Assembly (NCBI GenBank): GCA_003978765.1
Contig: QNYO01000036.1
Coordinates: 1-38,872, forward strand
DNA from: Hydrogenimonas sp.
GTDB lineage: Bacteria > Campylobacterota > Campylobacteria > Campylobacterales > Hydrogenimonadaceae
Length of the DNA stretch: 38,872 bases
Direction: 5' to 3'
Of the stretch, positions 32,538 through 38,872 are shown in pieces (within the stretch, counting starts at the first letter, position 1; each line of letters starts with the position of its first letter). The notes beneath the pieces are model-generated. The model did no database searches. It saw nothing but the letters and a program-made list of their open reading frames with translations, and had not been told where the DNA came from. A program made the translations under genes and the position numbers.

Positions 32538-34481
<1,944 letters not shown>

Positions 34482-34482
<1 letters not shown>

Positions 34483-35648
34483 TGGCATTTATTCCTTACG
34501 GCAAACAGTGGATCGATGATGAAGATATTCAGAGTGTTGTTGAGACACTCACATCAGACTACTTAACGACTGGCCCTAAAGTTGCTGAATTTGAAAAAGC
34601 GGTTGCCAACTATTGTGGTGCACGCTATGGTGTTGCTGTAAGTAATGGAACAGCGGCACTCCACATCGCCTCTCTTGCACTTCTTGAGCCAGGTGATAAA
34701 GTCTTAACCACGCCAAACTCCTTTATGGCAACCTCCAATGCTATCTGTTATACAGGAGCGCAACCCATTTTCATTGATATTCAACCCAATGGTAATATCA
34801 ACCTTGACCTGTGTGAAGAGGCACTTAAAAAAGACCCTTCTATCAAAGCCCTCTATGCTGTTCACTTCTCTGGTAATCCTGTTGAACAAGAGAGACTTGC
34901 AGATATAAAAGAGAGATATGGTATTACTATCCTTGAAGATTGTGCCCATAGCATCGGTGCCAACTATCAAGGGATCAAAGCTGGCAGTTGCCACTATAGC
35001 GATGCATCCATATTCTCTTTTCACCCTGTCAAGCATATTACCTCAGCTGAAGGTGGTATGGTTATGACAAATGATGAAAAGCTCTATCAACGTCTTCTTC
35101 GACTACGTAACCATGGTATGAAGCGTGAAGCGTTTAGCAATACAACAATGGCCTTTGATGAAAAAGGGAATATCAATCCATGGTATTATGAGATCGATGA
35201 ACTCGGTTTCAACTATCGTCTGACTGATTTGCAATGTGCCCTTGGTCTTTCACAACTCTCAAAACTTGACCATTTTGTTGCACGACGAAGAGAGTTGGCA
35301 CGCCATTACGATCAAGCCTTTGCTCATCACCCTATCGTTAAGCCTCTTTATACCTTTAATGGTCACTCCTCGTACCATCTTTATGTTCTCCTTGTCGATT
35401 TTGACCAACTCTCTATCACCAAAGCTGAACTCTTTTATAAAATGCGAGAAAAAGGTATTGGGTTACAACTACACTATATTCCCATTAATAAACTACCCTA
35501 CTATCAAAAACTTGGCTATGGTAACGAAGAGACACCTGTGATGGATAACTACTATCAACAGTGCCTTTCACTTCCTCTCTATCCAAAGATGAGTGATGAA
35601 GAGCAAAGTTTTGTCATCAATACTCTTCGTGAGGTGCTTCATGGATAG
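34482..35648 (+). CDS. pseC: UDP-4-amino-4,6-dideoxy-N-acetyl-beta-L-altrosamine transaminase
   Basis: FIPYGKQWIDDEDIQSVVETL, YGVAVSNGTAALHIASLAL, SIFSFHPVKHITSAEGGMV (PLP Lys). Confidence 0.96.
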
Positions 35649-36354
35649 GTGTATTGCTATCATTCCTGCAAGAGGTGGTAGTAAACGTATTCCTCGAAAA
35701 AATATCAAACCTTTTCATGGGAAACCTCTTATTGCCTACTCTATTGAAACAGCTTTAAAAAGTAAACTTTTTGATCAAATTATCGTCTCAACTGATGATG
35801 AAGAGATTGCCGATATTGCAAAAACGTATGGAGCTGAAGTCCCTTTTCTTCGTCCTAAAAGATTAGCCGATGATTTTACTGGGACAGCCGATGTGATCAA
35901 CCATGCACTTGAATGGCTTCAACAACATGGTAAGCAATTTGACTATGCCTGTACCATTTATGCTACAGCACCACTCCTTCAAGCCAAATATCTGATAGAA
36001 GGGTATGAAAAGCTAAAAAACTCTGATGCGGTCTATGCTTTCTCAGCGACATCTATGCCCTTTCCTATTCAACGAACCTTCAAGATTACAGAAGATGGGC
36101 GATGTGAAATGTTTTTTCCAGAACATTTTAAAAGTAGAAGTCAAGATCTCGAAGAGGCCTACCAAGATGCTGGACAATTCTATTGGCGTAAACTTTATCA
36201 AACATCTCATCAACCAATGTTTGGTAAAGACTCTATTCCTATTATTTTACCAAGACACCTTGTACAAGATATCGATACGTTAGAAGATTGGGATCGAGCC
36301 GAAAAGCTATATAGAGTCATACAAATGGAAGAATCTCAATCAAAACTATCTTGA
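35641..36354 (+). CDS. pseF: Pseudaminic acid cytidylyltransferase
   Basis: CIAIIPARGGSKRIPRKNIKPFHGKPLIAYSIE, STDDEEIADIAKTYGA; start at 35641. Confidence 0.95.
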   Translation: MDRCIAIIPARGGSKRIPRKNIKPFHGKPLIAYSIETALKSKLFDQIIVSTDDEEIADIAKTYGAEVPFLRPKRLADDFTGTADVINHALEWLQQHGKQFDYACTIYATAPLLQAKYLIEGYEKLKNSDAVYAFSATSMPFPIQRTFKITEDGRCEMFFPEHFKSRSQDLEEAYQDAGQFYWRKLYQTSHQPMFGKDSIPIILPRHLVQDIDTLEDWDRAEKLYRVIQMEESQSKLS

Positions 36355-36461
36355 TAAACCATGAAAAAGATCCTTAAGCTTAAAAAAGAAAACTATCGCT
36401 CTTTACATAAGTTTGATAGATGCTTTTTATATGATACTATCAAAAAATAGTAAGGTATATC

Positions 36462-36956
36462 ATGCATAACGACATCAATCTTATCAACTTCATCGATACT
36501 TCTTTAGAAGAAAAAAAGATGATTTTAGAATGGCGTAATCATCCAAATATCAGAAAGTGGATGTATAACCAAAAGATAATTGATTTAAGCTCTCATTTAG
36601 CATTTATTGATTCATTAAGATATAGTCAAGATAAACTCTACTTTTTAGTCAAAAAGGCAGAACAATATATTGGTGTTATTGACTTTACAAAAATTGACCA
36701 TAATAATAAGTCAGCATACTTTGGACTCTATGCCAATCCCTATTGTAAATTAGCAGGTATTGGTAGAATTTTAGAAACTATCTCAATCGATTACGCTTTC
36801 AATACATTACATCTCACTGTTTTAAAACTTGAAGTATTAAGTAACAATATCCAAGTACGAAATCTTCATAAAAAATTTCATTTTCAAGAACTTGGGACAA
36901 AGATGATTAATGATAAAGAGGTTATCTATATGGAGTTAACTTATGAAAATAGGTAA
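36462..36956 (+). CDS. pseH: UDP-4-amino-4,6-dideoxy-AltNAc N-acetyltransferase (GNAT)
   Basis: GNAT fold; MILEWRNHPNIRKWMYN and YFGLYANPYCKLAGIGRILE resemble PseH; cluster position. Confidence 0.88.
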   Translation: MHNDINLINFIDTSLEEKKMILEWRNHPNIRKWMYNQKIIDLSSHLAFIDSLRYSQDKLYFLVKKAEQYIGVIDFTKIDHNNKSAYFGLYANPYCKLAGIGRILETISIDYAFNTLHLTVLKLEVLSNNIQVRNLHKKFHFQELGTKMINDKEVIYMELTYENR

Positions 36957-37980
36957 TTTTGATCTCTCTGGAGACAAAACATTTATTATTGCAGAGCTTT
37001 CTGGCAACCATCATGGAAATCTACAGACGGCACTTGATACGATTCAAGCAGCTAAAGAGATTGGTGCTGATGCCATTAAACTACAAACCTATACAGCTGA
37101 TACAATCACTCTTGATTGTGATAAAGAAGAGTTTGTGATTAAAGGAGGAACACTTTGGGATCATACAACACTCTATGATCTTTACAAAAAAGCCTATACT
37201 CCTTGGGAATGGCATGAAGAGCTCTTCAACTACGCTAGAAAAATTGGTATCGATATCTTCTCATCTCCTTTTGACAAAAGTGCTGTCGATTTCTTAGAAC
37301 AGTTCAACCCAAGTGCCTATAAAATCGCATCGTTTGAAATAACAGACTATGAGCTGGTCCGCTACACTGCATCCAAGGGTCGTCCGATGATTATCTCTAC
37401 TGGTATCGCCACAATTGATGAAATTCAAGATGCTGTTGATATCTGTCGAAGTGAAGGAAATAATGATATTGTACTGCTTAAGTGTACTAGTGCATATCCT
37501 GCTCCACTTGAAGAGGCCAATCTAAAAACTATTCCAAATCTTGCTGAAACCTTTGGCGTTATTGCAGGATTTTCTGACCATACGTTAGGTATTACTGCAC
37601 CGATTGCTGCTGTAACACTTGGTGCAAAAGTCATCGAAAAACACTTTATCCTCGATAAAAGTATTGGAGGACCTGACGCAGACTTTTCACTGGATAAAGA
37701 AGAGTTTGCTCAAATGGTTCAAGCTGTTAGAGATACAGAAAAGCTCTTAGGAAGAGTTGACTACTCTATGACAGAGAAAAAAAAGAAAAGTAGGCAATTT
37801 GCAAGAAGTCTTTATATAGCTGAGGATATCAGACAAGGGGAAATCTTTACAGAAAAAAATATCCGCTCTGTACGACCTGGCTATGGTCTTCATCCTAAAT
37901 ATTTTAAAGAAATTATTGGGAAAAAAGCAAAAAGAGACCTTACCAAGGGTACTGCATTAAAATGGAGAGATGTTCAATGA
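36943..37980 (+). CDS. pseI: Pseudaminic acid synthase
   Basis: FIIAELSGNHHGNLQTALDTI, FSSPFDKSAVDFLEQF, C-terminal SAF domain ARSLYIAEDIRQGEIFTEKNIRSVRPGYGLHPKY. Confidence 0.96.
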   Translation: MKIGNFDLSGDKTFIIAELSGNHHGNLQTALDTIQAAKEIGADAIKLQTYTADTITLDCDKEEFVIKGGTLWDHTTLYDLYKKAYTPWEWHEELFNYARKIGIDIFSSPFDKSAVDFLEQFNPSAYKIASFEITDYELVRYTASKGRPMIISTGIATIDEIQDAVDICRSEGNNDIVLLKCTSAYPAPLEEANLKTIPNLAETFGVIAGFSDHTLGITAPIAAVTLGAKVIEKHFILDKSIGGPDADFSLDKEEFAQMVQAVRDTEKLLGRVDYSMTEKKKKSRQFARSLYIAEDIRQGEIFTEKNIRSVRPGYGLHPKYFKEIIGKKAKRDLTKGTALKWRDVQ

Positions 37981-38744
37981 AAAAAACACTTGTTTGGGGA
38001 TTTGAGTGGGAAAGCCAAATTGAGGCTATTAAAAATATTCATCATAAAGGACTCATTGAAGTCAAAGGTTGGGTTATCAGTCCATCCCAACAATCAAGAG
38101 TTATCAATGGACTTGATATGATTAATATACGATATCTACGTCTTGAAAAACATAACTTTTCAGGCAAAGCTCATTACCTTTATGATGATGTTAAAACAGC
38201 ATGTTTAGAGAAGTTTATTGAAATGTACTCACGTAATCACTTTACAGAGTCATTCGACTATATCGATTTTCTTCAAGCATTCAATCTTTTTTATGACTAT
38301 TTTGCAACCCTTTTAATAGAACGTAATATTGAACTTATACTCTTTTCATATTTACCACATTTTGGAGATGACTTAATTCTCTATACTCTGGCCAAAAAAC
38401 TTGGAGTCACAACTGTCATCTATTATCAATCTCATATTCCTAATCGTCTCTATTATATGCTTGATATGGATGACTATGGCCGATTTGAAACGATTCCTCT
38501 TCGTTTCGACCATCCATATATATCGATTGAAAAAAAATATGAAAAAGAACACTTCTATATGAAAAAGAAGAGATTGGATGTCCCATGTACTCCAAGATTT
38601 CTCAAAGAGATACGGCGTATCGTCTTTAGACGAAGAAACCGTATAGGCTTCCTTAATGCATTAAAACTTCAAAGAGACTGTATTCGCTATAAAAAGAATC
38701 TCAAAAAACACTCTATCAATCACATTGACTTTAGGAGAGGCTAA
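37977..38744 (+). CDS. Surface-polysaccharide/capsule-type family protein, apparently truncated N-terminal part
   Basis: Segment [51 protein letters not shown] resembles the N-terminal half of this family; ORF ends abruptly in [11 protein letters not shown]. Confidence 0.6.
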
Positions 38745-38870
38745 TACAACATTTTTGATACGTGAGAGTCTTTCAAAAAAGAGTGGACCACGATATTTTT
38801 GTAACTGTTTTGGGTTCTCTTTGACAACAATTTTCCAATCTTTGGGAAGAAGAGTATGCAGTATTTCAAT
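38661..38870 (-). pseudogene. Opposite-strand reading frame, open at the window edge, resembling the downstream half of the same family
   Basis: Minus strand reads [52 protein letters not shown] then [17 protein letters not shown]-stop; 69 sense codons. Confidence 0.55.
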
Positions 38871-38872
38871 AG

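Follow-up and report, generated by a model that had tools for sequence, protein, structure and literature searches.

Chimeric molecules in which a second segment of DNA is joined in reverse orientation are described from multiple displacement amplification (MDA), where 85% of 475 chimeras were inverted (Lasken and Stockwell 2007, PMC1855051). Priming had mostly taken place where 2-21 nt were complementary, and nearby segments were favoured (Lasken and Stockwell, PMC1855051). Fold-back or palindromic chimeras are known from ordinary libraries as well as from amplified DNA (PMC10908179, PMC6218980). The right end of the contig analysed here resembles the MDA products (PMC1855051) in its inverted second segment, its intervening deletion, the origin of both segments at one locus and its short complementary junction; it differs from them in that it is known from assembled contigs only and that amplification of the sample is undocumented. 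With the library artefacts (PMC10908179, PMC6218980) it shares the character of a self-complementary chimera on short inverted repeats, but those were described in reads, whereas the present one would have survived into contig ends. We conclude that this end is very probably a fold-back (inverted) chimera formed in vitro.

One glycosyltransferase gene on two strands

The window, a stretch of 38,872 nt, is the complete contig C8, one of the 94 contigs of a 1.6-Mb draft genome that is 80% complete and whose smallest contig measures 2.5 kb. A first-pass annotation of the window had named a chimera at a contig end as one possibility, and position 38872 is where the contig physically stops. The relevant features are:

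33454-36956, + strand: pseB, pseC, pseF and pseH, matching the NCBIfam equivalogs TIGR03589, TIGR03588, TIGR03584 and TIGR03585, all above cut-off
36943-37980, + strand: pseI, pseudaminic acid synthase (NCBIfam TIGR03586, E = 1.4e-159), directly upstream of the split gene
37977-38732, + strand: N-terminal part of a PF05159/KpsS-like glycosyltransferase gene, ~252 residues in native orientation, profile columns 14-260
38715-38732, no strand assigned: probable chimeric junction, the 18 nt ATCAATCACATTGACTTT, family sequence on both strands, with the core ATTGACTTT at 38724-38732
38715-38870, − strand: inverted later part of the same gene, 52 residues, profile columns 291-342, its open frame running off the contig end
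38733-38744, + strand: chance tail RRG* of the + strand ORF, where the inverted segment is read through

Both translations are present as the first-pass annotation had described them, and its suggestion that they belong to a single gene holds: the + strand ORF and the minus-strand frame are consecutive parts of one PF05159 (Capsule_synth) glycosyltransferase. Seven full-length homologs were combined into a profile, and among the 598 six-frame ORFs of the window the + frame matched it over columns 10-260 with E = 1.6e-54 (2.3e-56 for this half alone) and the minus frame over columns 291-342 with E = 8.5e-18 (1.5e-20 for this half alone). No third frame of the window matched, the next best of the 598 having E = 0.79, and the two-frame match is far beyond chance. 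The same order is found within single proteins. Aligned to P0002 (L003:922-2241:-), a PF05159 protein of 440 aa encoded after a pseI gene, window positions 37980-38732 (+) correspond to residues 10-252 and positions 38867-38718 (−) to residues 284-333, over which the minus half is 52% identical (59% to the homolog L006). Each half was also searched in 60 relatives; in one of these, G039:C14, both led to a single shared gene, the one that encodes P0002, at successive positions of one open frame. A second full-length homolog was found in a Duodenibacillus draft, after a neuB/pseI-like gene, and three additional ones came from 399 genomes of the order; a scan of the genome collection returned no relatives for the + half and one for the minus half. 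Neither half alone matches Pfam, but P0002 and L006, both full-length, score above the Pfam cut-off, and the window halves match the homolog profile. A gap of 30 residues (columns 261-290, ~90 nt) separates the halves in the profile, and a search of the rest of the draft genome located neither these columns nor anything beyond column 342.

The split gene begins at an ATG that overlaps the pseI stop, and the order of a pseI/neuB-like gene followed by a homolog of the split gene recurs in L003 and L006. According to work cited in PMC12887879, the A. baumannii enzyme KpsS1 is a pseudaminyltransferase of the retaining type, family GT118. The seven-homolog profile also matches, with E = 3.3e-39, a PF05159-like gene of Acinetobacter baumannii that lies in a capsule locus with psa/pse-type genes. 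This match and the gene order make the split gene a plausible candidate pseudaminic-acid transferase. It resembles KpsS1 (GT118), KpsC-KpsS and PF05159 in the PF05159 assignment of its full-length homologs and in the pseudaminic-acid neighbours found in several genomes; it is unlike KpsS1 and PF05159 in that overall identity is low and the transferase role of its branch is putative. The full-length relatives belong to PF05159, and their sequence similarity to solved KpsC structures is weak. The family adjoins pseudaminic-acid genes in L003, L006, L029 and L204, and does not do so in L030 or L031. Within the window's own pse cluster, pseG is absent between pseF and pseH (35593-36956), and contig C19 carries a PseG match that exceeds the family cut-off (L194; G000:C19:9617-10432).

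The junction and its probable origin

The first-pass annotation had placed the loss of family resemblance near 38.70-38.74 kb. That zone stands and can now be narrowed, since homology extends to 38732 on the + strand and to 38715 on the minus strand, so that the two readings overlap by 18 nt and leave no gap. The + alignment stops at F (38730-38732), beyond which the seven-homolog profile finds no family homology in this frame, and the minus alignment stops at D (38715-38717). In the + frame the end of ATCAATCACATTGACTTT reads I-D-F, comparable to V-D-F in the homolog from G202, and on the minus strand ATCAATCACATTGACTTT reads K-V-N, comparable to S-P-K-V-N in G039. By its sequence, then, the junction coincides with a short stretch of inverted complementarity, strongest in the core ATTGACTTT/AAAGTCAAT. 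The figure of 9-18 nt that we give for this microhomology is the overlap of the homologous readings, the native arm sequence being absent from the draft. In the intact gene the complementary arms lie ~230 nt apart, a distance that follows from the missing columns 261-290 and from the profile positions of both halves. From left to right, C8 thus carries profile columns 14-260 forward and then columns 342-291 reversed, with a deletion between, and the contig stops 140-158 nt beyond the junction, about the length of one short read.

These observations are best explained by a molecule that formed in DNA amplification or library preparation and that the assembler then incorporated into the contig. 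One strand of the intact gene would end near the K-V-N codons (profile column ~339), and its 3′ end would anneal near the I-D-F codons (column ~260), where a short complementary stretch lies ~230 nt upstream. Extension of the annealed 3′ end would copy the upstream part backwards, giving a molecule that, read from the left, follows the native gene to 38732 and continues as the reverse complement of the gene's later part. That the molecule arose in vitro, that it was primed in this way and that the cells have an intact gene are inferences; a search of the draft for the native C-terminal part of the gene found none. The fold-back chimera is favoured because the halves belong to one protein, the microhomology is inverted, the contig ends ~140 nt further on and a comparable fold-back occurs at another contig, C17. 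Of the two explanations offered by the first-pass annotation, these points (junction overlap, contig end and C17) favour the inverted contig-end chimera, and we hold it with high confidence.

A second fold-back and the scan of contig ends

We scanned 184 contig ends, 558 kb including the window and with two contigs masked, for fold-backs. Counting exact, non-palindromic inverted repeats that are 20 nt or longer and have their arms within 1 kb, these 558 kb hold a single case, at the left end of C17:

L023:1-385 (G000 contig C17, left end): fold-back with a 122-nt exact inverted repeat and a 141-nt loop, flush with the terminus

This fold-back interrupts a frame of 524 residues, where the proteins of relatives have ~640-670 residues. 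Homology of the closest of these proteins to the C17 frame stops at residue 511-514, at the fold-back, and the relatives run ~130 residues further. The end of C17 consists of native A, native B and reversed A, and that of C8 of native A and reversed B. The two ends would be two readings of one type of fold-back molecule, A-B-rcA, whose reverse complement is A-rcB-rcA, and the two tails extend beyond the junction by 122-158 nt, roughly the length of a short read. The arrangement at C17 reads as an inverted duplication, because native A and B are followed by inverted A, and a simple inversion, although it could explain C8, cannot give such a structure. The first-pass annotation had treated an MDA-amplified library with similar inverted chimeras elsewhere as the mark of an artefact, and the left end of C17 would be such a chimera.

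The pattern was seen at only two of the 184 ends, chimeras of the C8 type being visible only where homologs exist. Across the whole window no convincing close-range inverted repeat was found. A search for strand switches at all contig ends gave 35 candidate ORF pairs, and apart from C8 and C17 those judged by eye looked like ordinary convergent genes or spurious frames. As biology the feature on C8 would be without importance, being most likely an artefact, but it bears on data hygiene: terminal fold-back chimeras in drafts mimic inversions, truncated genes and phase-variable loci. A scan of contig ends for flush hairpins and strand switches can reveal them.

Inversion, two genes or a chromosomal duplication

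The other explanation in the first-pass annotation, and the one implied by its heading, was a real inversion, perhaps phase-variable, splitting the gene. The split is borne out, but the inversion finds no support, given that the segment ends in the last ~150 bases of the contig and that the microhomology is 9-18 nt of coding sequence. The proposal would be that ~230-270 bp inside the glycosyltransferase gene were genuinely inverted via a short inverted repeat, by phase variation or spontaneously, and that the inversion is fixed or segregating. The left junction alone would look the same in either case, and since spontaneous inversions with short inverted repeats at their endpoints are documented in bacteria (PMC3411829), microhomology alone is not decisive. 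C8 moreover resembles phase-variable invertible segments in having a flipped segment, an inverted repeat and a surface-glycan locus, and the enzyme in question acts on surface glycans, as do many variable ones. It departs from them in several respects: the contig shows one junction only, the right side being missing from the draft and the second junction unseen; the repeat of 9-18 nt is ordinary coding sequence; and inspection of the window ORF list by eye turned up no known recombinase, family searches having covered the pse-region proteins. An internal flip of 250 bp would merely break the gene. What remains is a truncated ORF ending in RRG*, which makes neither a gene meaningful in both orientations nor a promoter switch. 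No comparable split was seen in the 399 genomes of the order that were searched, and the fold-back at the C17 end is beyond what an inversion can produce. We therefore consider a genuine inversion unlikely. That an invertible segment of ~250 bp turns a putative pseudaminyltransferase gene on and off in this uncultured bacterium is more doubtful still; if true, a surface-sugar gene would contain an on/off switch of very small size.

It is also conceivable that the halves come from two separate members of the family, carried by one genome or by strains binned together, which faced each other and were joined or truncated at one place. The draft does appear to be strain-mixed, with contig ends that overlap at 93-97% identity (for example C4/C11, C15/C45 and C58/C64), but it holds a single set of family matches. 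In the profile the pieces complement each other (14-260 and 291-342) without overlap, and one would not expect both genes to be cut off at the same 18-nt site, which makes this origin highly improbable. A stable inverted duplication of the chromosome, produced inside the cell when the template switched at a quasi-palindrome, would be expected to leave the same junction and the C17 structure too, but we give it hardly any credence, since it needs two independent events that each end a contig within one read length and since long palindromes are unstable in cells.

The in-vitro fold-back chimera is thus the reading we retain for C8. The contig ends of this genome (G000) show other peculiarities. 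Pairs of ends overlap over hundreds of bases at 93-97% identity, for example C4 left with C11 left and C15 right with C45 left, and likewise C17 right with C66 right, C55 right with C77 left and C58 left with C64 left. Such overlaps suggest that the draft is a strain composite and came from a metagenome bin of mixed strains, not from one cell. Three more pairs of contig ends have exactly 149 nt in common. Were 149 nt the assembly k-mer, the C8 end minus 149 nt would fall at 38724, within the junction overlap, which is suggestive of a merge point in the assembly graph; we do not rely on this idea because the corresponding figure at C17 differs (122 nt). Finally, a short tandem repeat forms the right ends of C36 (L115) and C9 (L088), where matches shift by 7 nt and one frame reads as HHPSSII repeats.
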